NCBI GenBank assembly: GCA_020072565.1
Contig: JAIQGI010000020.1
Location: 62,001 to 126,000, forward strand
Source of the DNA: Terriglobia bacterium
GTDB taxonomy: Bacteria; Acidobacteriota; UBA6911
DNA: 64,000 nt
Direction of reading: 5' to 3'
Each line of letters opens with the position of its first letter. Position 1 is the stretch's first letter. Of this stretch, positions 28,176-34,292 are shown piece by piece. A program made the position numbers and the translations under genes. The notes beneath the pieces were generated by a model. It searched no databases, was not told the origin of the DNA, and saw only the letters and a list, made by a program, of their open reading frames with translations.

Positions 28176-28478
28176 TCACCTGTACGAAAGATCGAGGAAG
28201 GTCAAGCCAATGAACAGGGTAAGCACGCCCAGCACCATGAAAACCAGGGTCTTCAAAAACGGCTTCTCGAATTTCAGGTGCATGAAATAGAAAAAGACCA
28301 GCCCCGCCTTGAGTGGAGTCAGGGTCAGCAGGGCAGGCACCGATAGCGCCTCGTGATAGACGGTGCTGACAAAAACCAGGAGGGCCGTGAGAAAGAGCAG
28401 CAGCAACCAGATCTTGACGAAAGTCCCATAAGAAACTATGTGGCCATGCGCCTCTGCGGGTTCCATGTCATGCTCCAT
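28176..28478 (-). CDS. coxD: Cytochrome c oxidase subunit IV (prokaryotic type)
   Basis: A 100-residue protein with three hydrophobic helices (FVKIWLLLLFLTALLVFVST, VPALLTLTPLKAGLVFFYFM, LVFMVLGVLTLFIGLTFL) and the conserved KAGLVFFYFMHLKFE motif of the COX4_pro/DUF-type subunit IV. It stabilises the oxidase complex and has no cofactor. The ATG at 28478 shares its first base with the last base of the coxC stop (TGATG); a TTG three bases upstream is the alternative. Confidence 0.87.
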   Translation of the reverse strand: MEHDMEPAEAHGHIVSYGTFVKIWLLLLFLTALLVFVSTVYHEALSVPALLTLTPLKAGLVFFYFMHLKFEKPFLKTLVFMVLGVLTLFIGLTFLDLSYR

Positions 28479-29098
28479 CAAGCCGCCAGATACAAAAGAG
28501 GCAAGAGGAAGATCCAGATCACATCAACCAGATGCCAGTAAAGCCCGACGTTCTCGAGCTTGTTGAAGTCGGTGCTCGTGATCTTGTCCCTGCGGACAAA
28601 GTCCAGGGTGATCGACAACGCAATGACGCCGGCCAGAACATGCAAGCCGTGCAGGCCGGTCATGCTGTAGTAAAGCCCATAAAAGATCTTCTCCCCGTCG
28701 GGGAGTTTGAGCAGCGCCGGCCCGTTGGGATAGATGCCGCGCCGGATCTCCTCCATCCACTCGATGTATTTGTTCAGCAGGAACATGAGGGCGAAGGCGA
28801 TCGTGGTCCCCAGGCACACCATAGTCAGCTTCCTGTTGCCCTTCTGGATCGCGGAGATGGCCACGGCCACCGTCAGGCTGCTCGTAAGCAATATCACCGT
28901 GTTGGCAACCCCGATGAACGTGTTGAGATGCTGGCCGCCGATGTGAAAATCAAGCGGATACTTTGCCCGGTAGGCGGAATAAAGCAGGAACAAGCCCCCA
29001 AAGAGAAGTATCTCGGTAAACAGGAAAAGCCACATGCCGAACTTGGCGCCCTGGTAATCCTTGTGGACCGGATGCGCGTGGGCTGGAACGCTGCTCAT
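28478..29098 (-). CDS. coxC: Cytochrome c oxidase subunit III
   Basis: A 206-residue heme-copper oxidase subunit III with five transmembrane helices, the common short bacterial form. Motifs seen are GMWLFLFTEILLFGGLF, MTGLHGLHVLAGVIAL and the closing YWHLVDVIWIFLLPLLYL. The ATG at 29098 overlaps the coxA stop (ATGA) with GGAGGCGG upstream. It does not bind redox centres; it supports proton uptake and stability of subunit I. Confidence 0.93.
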   Translation of the reverse strand: MSSVPAHAHPVHKDYQGAKFGMWLFLFTEILLFGGLFLLYSAYRAKYPLDFHIGGQHLNTFIGVANTVILLTSSLTVAVAISAIQKGNRKLTMVCLGTTIAFALMFLLNKYIEWMEEIRRGIYPNGPALLKLPDGEKIFYGLYYSMTGLHGLHVLAGVIALSITLDFVRRDKITSTDFNKLENVGLYWHLVDVIWIFLLPLLYLAA

Positions 29099-30723
29099 TT
29101 TGCCGCCTCCGGGTTGAATATATAGGGTCGTTCGGTGATCGTCGGGGGTTCTGCAAAGTTTTCCAGCGGCGGCGGCGACGGAGTCTGCCATTCGAGGGTC
29201 ACGCCTCCCCAGGGATTCGCCTCGGCCTTCTTCCCTCTGAAGAGGGCAACGATGAGGTTTGCGAAAAACAGGACGAGGCCGGCCGCCATGATGAAGCCGC
29301 CTATGGATGCGATGATATGACCCGTGTGGTACTGGGGCAGGTGGGTGTAATAGCGGCGCGGCATCCCCATGTAGCCCAGGACCAGCATGCCGCCATAGAG
29401 CATGTTGAAGCCGATTATGATCGGGAACCAGGCGATCGTGGCCACCCTCTCGTTGTACATCTTCCCGAACATCTTGGGAAACCAGTAGAGCAGGGCGGCG
29501 AAAAAGCCCATGCCGGTGCCGCCGAACATGACGTAGTGAAAGTGCCCCACGATCCAGTATGTGTCGTGGAGGTGAACGTTGACGTTGAGCGCACCCTGGA
29601 TGAGCCCGGTCAGCCCGCCGATGGAGAAGAGGAATATGAAGGTGAGCGCGAAGATCATGGGTGGTTTGAGTTCAATGGCCCCCTTGTAAAGGGTTGAAGT
29701 CCAGTTGAAGACCTTGATTGCGCTCGGAACGGCCACGAGGAAGGTGAAGAGCGAAAACATGACGTTTGCCGCATCCCCCATGCCGCTCGTGAACATGTGA
29801 TGCCCCCATACGAGGGATCCTAGCGCCGCAATGCCGATCGAAGAATATGCGATCGCCTTATAGCCGAAGATCGTCCTGTGGGCAAAGGTGGGGATGACCT
29901 CGGTGATGGCGCCCATCGCGGGCAGGATCATGATGTAGACCGCAGGGTGCGAATAGATCCAGAAGAGGTGCTGGTACAGAAGCGGATCGCCGCCTTTGGC
30001 CGGGTCAAAGACGCCGATCCCGAAAATGCGCTCTGCGATCACCAGCAGCAACGTGATTCCTATGATCGGGGTCGCGAGCACCTGGACCCAGGCCGTTGCA
30101 TAGGTGGCCCAGACGAAGAGCGGCATGCGATGCCAGTTCATTCCCGGCGCGCGCAGGCGGTGCACCGTGGTGACGAAGTTGATGCCCGTCAGGATCGAAG
30201 AGAACCCGAGGAGGAACACGCCGAACACCCCCATAGGTATGTTCGTCCCCGTCCGCAGGCTGAAAGGCACATAGAATGTCCATCCCGCGTCGGGCGGGCC
30301 ATTGCCGGTAAAGAGCGAGGTGATCACGACCAACGCCCCCGTGATAAAAAAATACCAGGACATCAGGTTCAGGCGGGGAAAGGCCACGTCGCGCGCGCCG
30401 ATCATGATCGGAAGGAAAAAATTGCCGAAAACAGCCGAAGCGCCGGGGAGCACGAACATGAAGATCATGATGACGCCATGCACGGTGAAGAATGCGTTGT
30501 AGACGGCTGGCGGGAAGAGGGGGTGAGCCGTGGAGAGTTGCTCGATCCTCATCAGGACGCCGATGGTCATCGCCACGAGAAAGAGGCTGACCATGCTGGC
30601 AAGGTAAAGGATGCCGATCCTCTTGTGATCCGTGGAGAGAATCCATGCCAGGATACCCCTGCGGTCACTTGCATCCAGGAAGCTCCGGTATGCGGGAGCC
30701 TCACCCTGAGCTAGAGTAGTCAT
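29095..30723 (-). CDS. coxA: Cytochrome c oxidase subunit I, A2-type
   Basis: A 542-residue, twelve-helix heme-copper oxygen reductase subunit. His82 (TVHGVIM) is a low-spin heme ligand; the CuB His and cross-linked Tyr lie in WIYSHPAVYIMILP (His259, Tyr263); the CuB His pair is in WGHHMFTSGM; and heme ligands are in VGHFHYVMFGG. The YSHP sequence replaces the Glu of the D-channel found in A1 enzymes, which places this oxidase in the A2 class with Thermus and Rhodothermus caa3. It reduces O2 to water and pumps protons. It overlaps sco and coxC by 4 nt each. Confidence 0.96.
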   Translation of the reverse strand: MTTLAQGEAPAYRSFLDASDRRGILAWILSTDHKRIGILYLASMVSLFLVAMTIGVLMRIEQLSTAHPLFPPAVYNAFFTVHGVIMIFMFVLPGASAVFGNFFLPIMIGARDVAFPRLNLMSWYFFITGALVVITSLFTGNGPPDAGWTFYVPFSLRTGTNIPMGVFGVFLLGFSSILTGINFVTTVHRLRAPGMNWHRMPLFVWATYATAWVQVLATPIIGITLLLVIAERIFGIGVFDPAKGGDPLLYQHLFWIYSHPAVYIMILPAMGAITEVIPTFAHRTIFGYKAIAYSSIGIAALGSLVWGHHMFTSGMGDAANVMFSLFTFLVAVPSAIKVFNWTSTLYKGAIELKPPMIFALTFIFLFSIGGLTGLIQGALNVNVHLHDTYWIVGHFHYVMFGGTGMGFFAALLYWFPKMFGKMYNERVATIAWFPIIIGFNMLYGGMLVLGYMGMPRRYYTHLPQYHTGHIIASIGGFIMAAGLVLFFANLIVALFRGKKAEANPWGGVTLEWQTPSPPPLENFAEPPTITERPYIFNPEAAK

Positions 30724-31592
30724 GCTGACGACCTCGTTTTTTCTTTGTTGCCGCGAGACCTTCCCTTCAAGACGAATACCACGAATACGGCCGCAAAGAC
30801 CAGAATGGCCGCGCCCGTCACACGGGTGATGTTGAGCACGTAGCGTCGGCCTTGGGGGTCGTAGCTGTAGCAGAAGGCCAGAACTCTCGATATCGTCGGC
30901 CGCACCTGCCCGGCCGCGGCCTCCTGAAGCGCCATCTGAACATCTGCGGGAAGGAAGCTGATGCCGTACAGGTACCGGCTCACGATCCCCTCGCGCGTAA
31001 GCACTAGGATCGCGCCCGCGTGGACATACCCGTTTCCCGCCGGACGGAAGATGAAACCCACGGAATCGGTCACTGCCTTCGTGGCTTGGGCGCTCCCGGT
31101 CAGGAAGCGCCAGGCCTGCGGGGGAAACGGCCGCTTCATCTGCTTCAGGTAGTTGATACGCTTCTGGAAGGCCACTTCGGGCGTGTCCTTGGGATCGAAG
31201 CTCACGGTGATGACCTGGTAGTCCTTGCCGGGCTCGAGCCCGAGTTCATTGATGGCATCGACCAGCCCATTCAATAGCGGGGAGCAAATCCCGGTGCAGG
31301 TGAAGTAATTAAGCGTGAGGATCGTGGGTTTGTCGATGAGCCCGTGCAACGTAACGTCCCTCCCCTCCTCGTCCTTCAGCGGGACGCCGAGGGAAACCTG
31401 CGCCCCGAGCTTCTCATTGATGCCGGGTTCGCCCGCAGCACCCCCCTGCGCCCGCACACAGACCGCTGCGCCCGAGCCCAGCACGGAGGCAAAGACTGTA
31501 GCCAATAGCAGGCAGTATCGAATCAGGCACATGACGATGGTTTTTCTCTTCTGCGCCCCAGTTGTAACTGCGATGAGTGTTTCCGTGCTCAT
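30720..31592 (-). CDS. SCO1/SenC-type copper chaperone
   Basis: The protein has 290 residues, a hydrophobic signal or anchor segment (CLLLATVFASVLGSGAAV) and a C-terminal transmembrane helix (VTGAAILVFAAVFVVFVL). The thioredoxin-like core carries the copper-binding CxxxC in FTCTGICSPL and the third ligand His in NGYVHAGAIL. SCO proteins deliver or reduce copper at the CuA site of subunit II. The start is uncertain: the ATG at 31592 has AAGGAG 13 nt upstream; an internal ATG at 31532 directly begins the hydrophobic stretch. The gene overlaps coxA by 4 nt, but its upstream side borders the four-helix-bundle cassette. Confidence 0.9.
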   Translation of the reverse strand: MSTETLIAVTTGAQKRKTIVMCLIRYCLLLATVFASVLGSGAAVCVRAQGGAAGEPGINEKLGAQVSLGVPLKDEEGRDVTLHGLIDKPTILTLNYFTCTGICSPLLNGLVDAINELGLEPGKDYQVITVSFDPKDTPEVAFQKRINYLKQMKRPFPPQAWRFLTGSAQATKAVTDSVGFIFRPAGNGYVHAGAILVLTREGIVSRYLYGISFLPADVQMALQEAAAGQVRPTISRVLAFCYSYDPQGRRYVLNITRVTGAAILVFAAVFVVFVLKGRSRGNKEKTRSSA

Positions 31593-31628
31593 GTATTGCG
31601 AATCGCTCCTTCAACCCCCGGCAAAAAA

Positions 31629-31662
31629 CCGATCACGATCACGACCACGATCACGATCGCGA
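31629..31662. repeat. Left arm of the 34-nt inverted repeat flanking the four-helix-bundle gene
   Basis: The arm runs CCGATCACGATCACGACCAC and continues to 31662. It is complementary to 32118-32151 at 32 of 34 positions. It lies between sco and the four-helix-bundle gene and is built from ACGATC/ACGACC hexamers. Confidence 0.9.
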
Positions 31663-31669
31663 GGTTTGG

Positions 31670-32077
31670 CTAGTCGGCCTGGCCAAATAACATCGGCTCC
31701 TCGCTGACGGAATAGCCACGACCTCCCATCTTGGTCAGCATTGCCACAATCCGGAATAAGTGGTCCTTCCCTGCCTGATTCTCCTTGGGTTGGATAGCCC
31801 GGCAGGCATCCAGGACATCCTGCAGTGCTGCACACTCTAGCGCTGAACCGCGAGCAATTGAGAAGAAATGATGTCGGTCCGCATCCGTTGCTCGCCCGTT
31901 CCCTTCCGCGATGTTGAGCGGAATTGACTGTGCTGCCCGCAGCAATTGATCCCGAGCATGCCTGTGTTTCCCAACCAGTCGCTCCGCGATCAAAAAAGCC
32001 CACTTGCAGTATTCAATCGCGAGTCTATAGACATCTAGTTTTTCGTGGCTGAATCCTGTCCGCGCCCCATCAACCAT
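31670..32077 (-). CDS. Four-helix bundle protein (23S rRNA intervening-sequence family)
   Basis: A 135-residue member of the S23/TIGR02436 four-helix bundle family: HEKLDVYRLAIEYCKWAF, ARDQLLRAAQSIPLNIAEGN, HHFFSIARGSALECAALQDV and a fourth amphipathic helix. This family was first seen as the ORF inside 23S rRNA intervening sequences; related Avd proteins assist diversity-generating retroelements. The frame could extend upstream to 32203 through HDHDHDHDHD, but that part is simply translated repeat, so I choose the ATG at 32077. The gene is enclosed by the 34-nt inverted repeats and interrupts an otherwise overlapping respiratory operon, indicating an inserted cassette. No retroelement reverse transcriptase is nearby. 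Confidence 0.85.
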   Translation of the reverse strand: MVDGARTGFSHEKLDVYRLAIEYCKWAFLIAERLVGKHRHARDQLLRAAQSIPLNIAEGNGRATDADRHHFFSIARGSALECAALQDVLDACRAIQPKENQAGKDHLFRIVAMLTKMGGRGYSVSEEPMLFGQAD

Positions 32078-32117
32078 AGCTTCGTCCTCTTCTCCCTCCC
32101 ATCGCATCGCTTTCCCA

Positions 32118-32151
32118 TCGTGATCGTGATCGTGGTCGTGATCGTGGTCGG
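32118..32151. repeat. Right arm of the 34-nt inverted repeat, with a third copy at 32206-32231
   Basis: The arm is the reverse complement of 31629-31662 with two mismatches. A more degenerate unit in the left-arm orientation (ATCACAACCACAATCACGGT, then CACGAT) follows at 32206-32231, directly before the stop codon of the cytochrome c gene. Confidence 0.88.
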
Positions 32152-32235
32152 CTTTTCGGTGCCCTTTTACTTCACCACGATCCCTCAATTCTCCTCCACG
32201 CATCGATCACAACCACAATCACGGTCACGATAGAC

Positions 32236-33150
32236 TCACTTTGCTGCCAGCCTGACGAGCTCGGCGTGGAGTTCCTTCCACTCCCCCGCGGTCAGGGTTG
32301 CCGCGCTCAAAGCGAATCCGTTGCCTGGGGCATCGGGCAAAACGGCGGCCGCGAGTTCCGCGGGGCCCTTCCGCCAGTTTTCAGGTCCGGCCAGAGTCTG
32401 AGCAGCTCGAATGGGATTCCGGATCACCTTGCGGAAAATCTCCGCACCAGGGCTGTGATCCTCGGGCGCGACCGCAAGCTGTGGAGGAGCCTTGAATTCC
32501 TCTTCCAATTTGGCCATGGCCATACTCACGGGAATCTTGTTGGGTGTCTTCTCTCCGGGCGCCGCGAGGACTTTCGACAGAGCCGCCAGAGCCTCCGGGC
32601 TCCCCGTCCCATGCGAAAACGCGCCCAGAGATTGAACGTAATGTGCCAAGGCCATACGGTCTTTCCGGGACAGATAATCAAACGATGCCATGGATGTGCC
32701 CGGCACGCCAGTGCTCACGGTCTTGTAGACCGCCGGAAGGTCGTAGCCGTTCGTCCAACCGCTGGGATTTGTGAAGTTGCGCGGCCGCGGATTCATGGTC
32801 ACGGACGCGGGCCCGTCGCCATGCCCTTGCTCGCCGTGGCAGGACACGCAATTGGCGGCGAAAAGTTCCTTTCCTCTGGTCATCAACGCCGCGGACGGCG
32901 CGATCAGGGTTGCGGGATCCACCGGGGGAATCACCCTCCCTCTCTCAGGCGGGAACTCGGTCGGATCGAGCCAGCCCGGCTCCCCCACGACGGGGTTCAC
33001 GGGTGTGGGAGTTTCCGGTTTGTTGGCGTTACGCAGCCCAGGCACGACGATCATGGCAAAAAGGCCGGCGATGGCCAGCGCCGCCATAACTACAACCAGC
33101 GTCGCCAGCAGGCGCCTGAGTTCTTCCGCGTTGACGTATTTCTCAATCAT
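32236..33150 (-). CDS. Membrane-anchored mono-heme cytochrome c of the ACIII operon
   Basis: The 304 residues have an N-terminal transmembrane helix (TLVVVMAALAIAGLFAMIVV) and one class I heme site, CVSCHGEQGHGDGP, with a candidate axial Met in VPGTSMASFDYL. The C-terminal 100 residues have no heme motif. It begins with ATGA overlap on the actF stop, and its position between ACIII and the oxidase suggests that it carries electrons from ACIII to the caa3 CuA site. The ActE cytochrome is already present as a fusion with ActD, so this is an additional cytochrome. Confidence 0.8.
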   Translation of the reverse strand: MIEKYVNAEELRRLLATLVVVMAALAIAGLFAMIVVPGLRNANKPETPTPVNPVVGEPGWLDPTEFPPERGRVIPPVDPATLIAPSAALMTRGKELFAANCVSCHGEQGHGDGPASVTMNPRPRNFTNPSGWTNGYDLPAVYKTVSTGVPGTSMASFDYLSRKDRMALAHYVQSLGAFSHGTGSPEALAALSKVLAAPGEKTPNKIPVSMAMAKLEEEFKAPPQLAVAPEDHSPGAEIFRKVIRNPIRAAQTLAGPENWRKGPAELAAAVLPDAPGNGFALSAATLTAGEWKELHAELVRLAAK

Positions 33151-34292
33151 AGGCGGAACTCCAGGCCTTCCCGAAGGAATGGATCTCCCACCGGCATGGC
33201 GGCGCCGCGGCTCATCAGGCGCCGGAACCACAGGAGGCTCGCGCATATGAAAAACAGGGCAAAGGACAACTCAGGCCAGCTGAAAAAAGGTCCTTTCCCG
33301 AGAACAGGAAAGATCATCCAGTAAAGGTCAAGCCAGTGCGCCAGCAGCATCAGCACAGCGACCCAAACGAGACGCTTGGGTTCGGTCTTAGCGATGCGCG
33401 GGATGAGTACCAGAAACGGGATAAAGAAATGAAAGACGGCGAGCACGAGAACAAGAGATCCCCAGAGCCCTTGCAGGCGCTCCTGGTACCAGAAGACTTC
33501 CTCGGGCATGTTCGCGTACCACATGAGCAGATACTGGGCAAAGCCGATGTAGGCCCAGAACACGGTAAAAGCAAACAGGAAACCACCAAGGTTGTAGATG
33601 TGGTCCGGCTCGACACCGGGGAGTTTCCCCCGGCCGCGTAGATAGAGGACTGCCAGCGTCGTGGCCGCCAGACCGGCGAGAAACGTGCCGGCAAAGATGT
33701 AGACACCGAACACATCGCTGTACCACGCCGGCTCCAAACCCGAGATCCAGTCAAAGGCCACAACTGTAATTGTGATTCCGAAAATGACGATGAAAACAGG
33801 GGCAAAGCGACGGGCACGCACGTTGAACCGAGGATCCTTCTCACGATCCTGCCGGATCGATCCGCTCACAAGAACCCTGTACGCGAGAATCCAGAGGCAG
33901 ATGCATGCCAGCACGCGCACAACGAAAAATGGCACGTTGAGCCAGGCCGCTTTGCCCGCGATGATCGGATCGGCCTGAGCTTCGGGCCTGGTCCACGGGT
34001 ACAGAATCGGCAGCGAGAGCAGCGCCAACAGCAGCGCAGGTCCCATCAGCAGCGCCAGGCTCGACAATCTCTCGGGGACCCGGCGCAGCGGCACACTCCA
34101 CTTGGCGCCCACCACATGCTCCAGGGCAACAATGAACAGGCAGCCGAGTCCGATCGTCAGCACAAACAAAAACCAGAAAATCCAATTGACCCAGAATCGT
34201 TCCCAACCGACGGCAAAACCCGTGGCCAGAACTCCCCCAAGTCCGGCGACCGCTCCCAAGGCGAACATTTTCGTCACGCCGCTCTCGTTCAC
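33147..34292 (-). CDS. actF: Alternative Complex III subunit ActF (quinol:cytochrome c oxidoreductase)
   Basis: A 381-residue, roughly ten-helix membrane protein of the NrfD/PsrC-like ActF type. Recognisable stretches include WVNWIFWFLFVLTIGLGCLF, LEHVVGAKWSVPLRRVPE, FDWISGLEPAWYSDVFG and FAQYLLMWYANMPEEVFWY. In ACIII the ActC and ActF subunits form the membrane quinol module. The start is GTG at 34292, overlapping the actDE stop (GTGA). Confidence 0.92.
   Translation of the reverse strand: MNESGVTKMFALGAVAGLGGVLATGFAVGWERFWVNWIFWFLFVLTIGLGCLFIVALEHVVGAKWSVPLRRVPERLSSLALLMGPALLLALLSLPILYPWTRPEAQADPIIAGKAAWLNVPFFVVRVLACICLWILAYRVLVSGSIRQDREKDPRFNVRARRFAPVFIVIFGITITVVAFDWISGLEPAWYSDVFGVYIFAGTFLAGLAATTLAVLYLRGRGKLPGVEPDHIYNLGGFLFAFTVFWAYIGFAQYLLMWYANMPEEVFWYQERLQGLWGSLVLVLAVFHFFIPFLVLIPRIAKTEPKRLVWVAVLMLLAHWLDLYWMIFPVLGKGPFFSWPELSFALFFICASLLWFRRLMSRGAAMPVGDPFLREGLEFRL

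Follow-up and report, generated by a model that had tools for sequence, protein, structure and literature searches.

The window, that is, the whole stretch of DNA that was analyzed, comprises 64,000 nt from a Terriglobia bacterium (assembly GCA_020072565.1, contig JAIQGI010000020.1, positions 62,001-126,000). The element under study takes up approximately 0.6 kb of it and is located between a cytochrome c gene and a sco gene (Table 1). An earlier note on this DNA had described a break of about 640 nt in an operon of overlapping genes, and this was reproduced: the gap from the cytochrome c stop codon to the sco start spans 643 nt, and elsewhere in the operon genes overlap by 4 nt (e.g., 30720-30723 and 28478-28481). 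The S23 gene and the operon both lie on the minus strand. In gene order, the element is composed of arm A, a spacer, arm B, the S23 gene, and arm C. S23 is its sole gene. It has no transposase gene of its own, and it possesses terminal inverted repeats, as would be required of an insertion sequence or a MITE.

Table 1. Features of the element and of its two neighboring genes (positions within the window)
Feature	Position	Strand	Description
sco (SCO1/SenC) gene	30720-31592	-	downstream of the insertion; assigned by profile match and empty-site comparison
Arm C	31624-31662	+	lies 3' of S23; its hexamers are degenerate (CGATCA/CGACCA, opposite strand RTCGNN)
S23/IVP four-helix-bundle gene	31670-32077	-	probable true extent, with ATG at 32077; longest ORF reaches 32203 through arm B
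Arm B	32118-32156	+	can pair with arm C (39 nt, 92% complementary) and also with arm A; border CGAAAAGCCGA
Spacer (hairpin loop)	32157-32203	.	between arms A and B
Arm A	32204-32231	+	third copy of the arm, more degenerate than the others; adjoins the cytochrome c stop codon
Cytochrome c gene	32236-33246	-	upstream of the insertion; stop codon about 5 nt from arm A

The arms are built from hexamer repeat units, which read RTCGTG on one strand. The complementarity of 32 of 34 bases reported earlier for 31629-31662 and 32118-32151 was confirmed, and the pairing extends outward to the 39 nt given for arms B and C. As a control, 419 fake "genes" of 312 nt were slid along the 64-kb window and scored identically. 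Herein, the arm pair of the element is the maximum with a score of 33, followed by an overlapping neighbor with 23 and the next independent place with 18; the 99th percentile lies at 17. Arm A is oriented in the opposite sense to arm B. The predicted pairing energies amount to -45.5 kcal/mol for A/B and -67.6 kcal/mol for B/C, and since arm B pairs with either A or C, the two predicted pairings are mutually exclusive. The border CGAAAAGCCGA of arm B also occurs in gene-less hairpins elsewhere in the genome.

The single S23/four-helix-bundle reading frame that had been recognized between the arms is intact. It matches PF05635 with an E value of 6e-21 (75 bits, curated cutoff 33.8) and, concordantly, TIGR02436 ("four helix bundle protein"; 69.8, cutoff 24); a search of PHROGs gave no match. 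The longest reading frame of 177 amino acids begins inside an arm, and its DHDHDHDH stretch is translated repeat. Hence, translation probably starts at the ATG at 32077. The predicted structure consists of four helices (pLDDT 88.6) and shares its fold with Xcc0516 (2GSC) and BT_0352 (2RLD) at TM-scores of about 0.75-0.9, and with the Avd protein of DGRs (4DWL, 8UB7) at 0.65-0.8. No catalytic domain is recognizable in S23, neither a nuclease nor a reverse transcriptase fold. In an alignment of 24 sequences, N55, I56, E58, G59, S78, and E81 are invariant, and L14, Q44, R47, and S51 are nearly so. Most orthologous or paralogous S23 pairs with enough changes yield a dN/dS of 0.06-0.16 and are, by this measure, under purifying selection; the recent copies L002 and L004 show 0.83, based on only seven changes.

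The junction between cytochrome c and sco, at which the earlier note had suggested looking for empty sites, is indeed unoccupied in relatives. In eight loci from seven genomes of the same family, the two orthologs are adjacent without S23 between them, and no more than about 30 nt separate the stop codon of cytochrome c from the probable start of sco, as opposed to the gap in the window. The cytochrome c proteins of these relatives are only 54-72% identical to that of the window; therefore, the exact bases before insertion cannot be given. A target duplication is not definable for the window copy. Genomes G012 and G003 contain the S23 genes closest to that of the window (62% and 61% amino acid identity, respectively); both have empty cytochrome c/sco junctions and carry their S23 gene on other contigs, with neither cytochrome c nor sco adjacent. 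With the window protein as query, named genome contigs yielded a single relative. Relatives with the gene at this site but without the arms, which would have refuted the idea of a mobile cassette, were not seen. As judged from these comparisons, the element is inserted between cytochrome c and sco in the sense of the operon, with neither gene broken, and it is the S23 family that moved and not the site.

The source genome contains eight S23 loci. Arms similar to the ACGATC/ACGACC arms of the window are present on S23 elements and hairpins of this genome, but there is no single conserved repeat, and the unit varies by family. Gene-less hairpins with window-like arms and a common AAAGCCGA border are located on contigs C1, C3, C7, C27, and C41. 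When 15 genomes of the family were queried with this hairpin, matches were restricted to the source genome and, weakly, G012; the congener G004 has neither S23 nor a hairpin match. A second S23 family occupies four loci (L002, L004, L007, and L008), whose matching segments are 94-95% identical. Its arms consist of the hexamers GTGGAC/TTGGAC, and its ends read CATAGGCGTTAACTTAA. One member, L007, is placed inside a dispersed REP-like repeat, of which other copies are empty (CCGGGCGTGAGCCCGG; nine empty copies are listed). At L007 and at the gene-less L090, GGGCGTGAGCCC stands on both sides (GGGCGTAAGCCC at one end of L090), representing a 12-bp duplication of a small hairpin.

The dispersed REP-like repeat is approximately 170 bp long with a central hairpin CCCGGGCGTGAGCCCGGG (L007, L081, L084-L086, and others), and on some contigs Y1 transposase matches lie near its copies (C130:3819, C67:3204). 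Gene-less copies of the GTGGAC family (L083, L087, L092, and L097) have one end intact and the other truncated, as might result from an RNA intermediate or from deletions. A further gene-less hairpin family with varied RTCGNN hexamers (L131, L139, and L140) is situated beside a second REP-like motif (CGGGGCGCACCC...GCATGAAAA).

Within the phylum, S23 is present in 117 of the 247 sampled genomes, often with 5-17 matches per genome. For each locus, the flanks of 300 nt on either side were compared for their best inverted repeat, and a score of at least 18 was counted as arms. They accompany 113 of the 124 S23 loci surveyed (91%), compared with 5.8% of fake genes in the same loci (55 of 950) and 3.9% of 2000 mispaired flanks. 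The dominant arm period is 7 in 87 loci, 8 in 13, 9 in 6, and 6, the class of the window, in 5. The heptamers follow the consensus NNNNYAG when read inward on the S23 sense strand, with A at 77% and G at 94%; its information is 3.13 versus 2.12-2.25 for permuted unit positions. Some S23 lineages carry 9-mer (AGTCTAGGA) or 8-mer (AGAGTTGC) units (L166, L173, L129, and L212), and unit length tracks lineage. Heptamers had also been considered as suppliers of stop codons in all frames, a candidate that was dropped without a formal test since many units (e.g., CAGTGGG and CAGGGGA) are free of stops.

Arms are likewise found at 15 of 16 S23 genes on named plasmids of Cyanobacteriota, Gemmatimonadota, and Azospirillum (hosts: Nostoc, Calothrix, Anabaena, Pseudanabaena, Geminocystis, Picosynechococcus, Leptolyngbya, Gemmatirosa, and Azospirillum). 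Several of these plasmid elements sit inside operons, with orders such as cas6-S23-cas4 and cas10-S23-cmr3. The S23 elements within CRISPR-cas operons on cyanobacterial plasmids (L302, L307, and L311) may explain why the IVP domain appears among CRISPR-linked domains (PMC10910872). Rfam gave no match in the window or in 20 other S23 loci, and no rRNA was present at any locus tested; the candidate of an escaped piece of rRNA was rejected on this basis.

The repeat unit varies between loci, and the two arms of one locus agree. Arm similarity correlates with S23 protein identity (Mantel r 0.32; maximum of 999 permutations 0.10) after pairs with homologous flanks had been left out. Together, the locus-specific units with matching arms and this correlation indicate that the arms and the S23 gene move and evolve together. 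At the level of sequence, the correlation amounts to joint inheritance and is not proof of binding.

The elements lie at the 3' ends of genes. The orientation of neighbors was taken from the longest ORFs at 108 loci with both neighbors called, and the upstream gene has the same sense as S23 in 91 of them. Between co-directional genes, S23 lies in sense 60 times and in the opposite direction 12 times (p 8e-9); divergent gene pairs flank it in only five loci. The arm starts no more than 12 nt from the upstream stop codon in 49 of 91 cases, and in convergent pairs, stop codons are adjoined by arms on the other side as well. For heptamer elements as a class, target duplications showed no excess over mispaired ends. 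The pdhA/pdhB junction in the genus of G143 (L241-L270) contains S23 in 4 of 30 species, with two S23 types and different arms, and a solo-arm remnant in one species; most remaining species are without insert. This junction is an intergenic hot spot, and some species have further, longer spacers. Some orthologous S23 insertions are kept between species (L271-L273).

Individual events can be followed base by base in finished Nostoc plasmids. At site B, the empty sequence reads GGTTCTAG GTT ATG, and the filled one reads GGTTCTA, followed by AATCAGGAGTCAG...S23...CTTCTGGA and then by TTCTAGTTATG, with a 5-bp duplication of TTCTA. Site A is filled in some copies and empty in others, and one copy has a gene-less hairpin; this hairpin (L319), with GGGAAC arms, occupies the same site as the S23 element of sister plasmids. 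In a sister plasmid, a different S23 element is located instead at the junction next to site B (site C), and at site D, an arm adjoins the nrdA stop codon. From plasmid to plasmid, the elements of sites A and B show 99.0-99.4% identity against a flank divergence of 5-18%, which argues for recent spread, be it by insertion or by very local recombination. The duplications are of unequal length, measuring 5 bp here and 12 bp in the second family of the source genome.

The suggestion of the earlier note, a mobile cassette laid out like an rRNA intervening sequence (IVS) but located outside rRNA, is thus upheld by the empty sites and, through the frequency of arms at S23 genes, becomes general. The anatomy, the generality, the insertions and empty sites, the ownership of the arms by the element, and the purifying selection in orthologous pairs are established as far as sequence comparison reaches. 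With a probability of roughly 0.8, the locus is read as a small S23-encoded mobile element at cytochrome c/sco and as one member of a wide class whose arm units, 6-9 nt long and mostly NNNNYAG, are particular to the S23 lineage and whose insertions lie at 3' ends of genes, usually in sense.

In the mechanism proposed for this element, transcripts of the host operon would serve for the synthesis of S23. The protein would form a ring like that of Avd, bind the cognate tandem repeats on the element nucleic acid, and promote the copying of the element or its insertion at the end of another gene. In read-through mRNA, the two arms would form a long stem, and RNase III-type trimming would free the S23 segment such that both neighbors stay translatable. 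Gene-less hairpins would be non-autonomous derivatives. That S23 binds its arms is inferred without binding data and appears rather likely; for the trimming, which rests on a strong predicted stem and no RNA data, the chances are about even; and it is doubtful that S23 itself is the mobilizing enzyme, which is likewise an inference. The RNA stem of the arms, as inferred, probably makes insertion between genes tolerable. In the simplest reading, S23 recognizes the arms (an inference) and joins in copying or insertion by unknown chemistry. A farther-reaching version can be put forward only tentatively: S23, a pentamer-type bundle with invariant N, E, and E, would be the mobilizer of a new transposable class and would read co-evolving 6-9-mer arms, and the still unexplained heptanucleotide repeats known from cyanobacteria and xanthomonads would have arisen from it as footprints and non-autonomous derivatives.

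Candidate partner enzymes were searched for in 35 S23-rich genomes. RVT_1 had no match in 20 of them, including the single-contig G121 (10 S23), the 8-contig G246, and G143 (17), and Y1 transposase had none in five, including G243 (17 S23 matches) and G151 (10). Both reverse transcriptase and Y1 transposase were rejected as obligatory partners on these grounds, with the caveat that present absence is not past absence and that divergent enzymes may escape profile searches.

Among the other explanations, the one that survives best, and is still unlikely, holds that the arms are REP- or MITE-like palindromes moved by another enzyme, for example, a Y1 transposase of the RAYT/IS200 type, with S23 as passenger or later capture. 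Like REP/REPIN-RAYT systems and MITEs, the elements are small palindromes that are dispersed and encode no transposase; hairpins that bear the same arms but no gene occur (including that of the Nostoc plasmid), one S23 family lies in a REP-like repeat, and a Y1 transposase occurs in 30 of the 35 S23-rich genomes, with eight in the source genome. However, they differ from these systems in carrying the S23 gene, and the Y1 enzyme is not always in the genome. A mere passenger also leaves unexplained why arm units track the S23 lineage, and S23 stands nearly always between such arms, across phyla. Duplications of 5 or 12 bp would not be expected of Y1 enzymes. The elements share inverted ends with insertion sequences and MITEs; target duplications are present in two cases, but not definable in the window copy and not above chance in the class, and unlike insertion sequences the elements have no transposase.

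It is less probable still that S23 belongs to a retro-element, acting as an Avd-like partner of a reverse transcriptase in trans while copies are made from the folded transcript. The shared fold fits, given that Avd is an accessory protein of DGRs (PMC10053308), and both the sense bias and the one-sidedly truncated gene-less copies would suit an RNA intermediate. Against this stand the many S23-rich genomes without an RVT_1 match, and selection for expression can also yield a sense bias. Unlike a DGR, the window element has no template and variable repeats and no adjacent reverse transcriptase; the only RVT_1 match of the source genome is on contig C121, the window being on C20, and no DGR-like genes are among the ORFs listed around the element.

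To the same low degree, the element could be a stable IVS-like cassette, with RNase III excision as its main property and rare, ancient insertions without ongoing mobility. In the 23S rRNA IVS of Coxiella burnetii, complementary termini are cut by RNase III (PMC4990558), and the layout is the same: a lone S23 ORF, complementary terminal arms, a length of about 0.4-0.6 kb, and the suspicion of a selfish element; the strong predicted closing stem in the window agrees with this. Yet the spread is recent, as seen from 99% identical elements in flanks that differ by 5-18%; near-identical copies stand at several places in one genome, and presence among congeners is patchy. The defining location of an IVS, inside a 23S or 16S rRNA gene, also fails, with the window element in a cytochrome c/sco operon and the class at the 3' ends of protein genes, and, unlike in an rRNA IVS, the arms are degenerate tandem 6-9-mers that track the S23 lineage, with empty sites and target duplications seen. 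A normal host gene surrounded by a hairpin with regulatory or insulating function, or by arms that are unrelated chance repeats, would suit the purifying selection on S23 and the insertions kept between species, but it is contradicted by the empty sites, the target duplications, the low control rates, and arms that differ by locus and still pair within it, and can hardly be maintained.

The S23-encoded mobile element therefore remains the preferred reading, and its arms invite comparison with published heptanucleotide repeats. These comprise the hyp-operon repeats csR1 and csR6 (PMC2408588), pairs of GGGAATC, for which no general association with mobile elements was found (PMC4692102), and the TAACTGA repeat (PMC4679880). 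Cyanobacterial and xanthomonad repeats share with the arms short tandem units in mostly intergenic positions, those of Xanthomonas often as convergent inverted pairs, and the csR1.1 heptamer TTGTCAG fits the arm consensus NNNNYAG. Unlike the arms, the published repeats carry no stated link to S23 (PMC2408588, PMC4692102, PMC4679880). Searches of the open-access literature gave no account of tandem-repeat arms around S23 at sites other than rRNA; subscription papers were outside the scope. Because the location of an IVS fails, the parts of a DGR are missing, a transposase is absent, and heptamers have not been linked to S23 in open-access papers, the S23-encoded mobile elements are here called a new class, with the caveat that it is related to the rRNA IVS, either by descent or by common design.

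If this is true, a "four helix bundle protein" that is very common and has no known function would turn out to be the gene of a widespread class of mobile elements with no known transposase. This would account for the arrival of S23 in rRNA, as the IVS, in operons, and in CRISPR-cas loci, and it would offer an origin for heptanucleotide repeats that have been noted for decades. It also raises two testable questions, namely whether DNA insertion may be driven by a protein without a known catalytic fold, and whether RNA trimming may serve as a buffer for insertions in operons.
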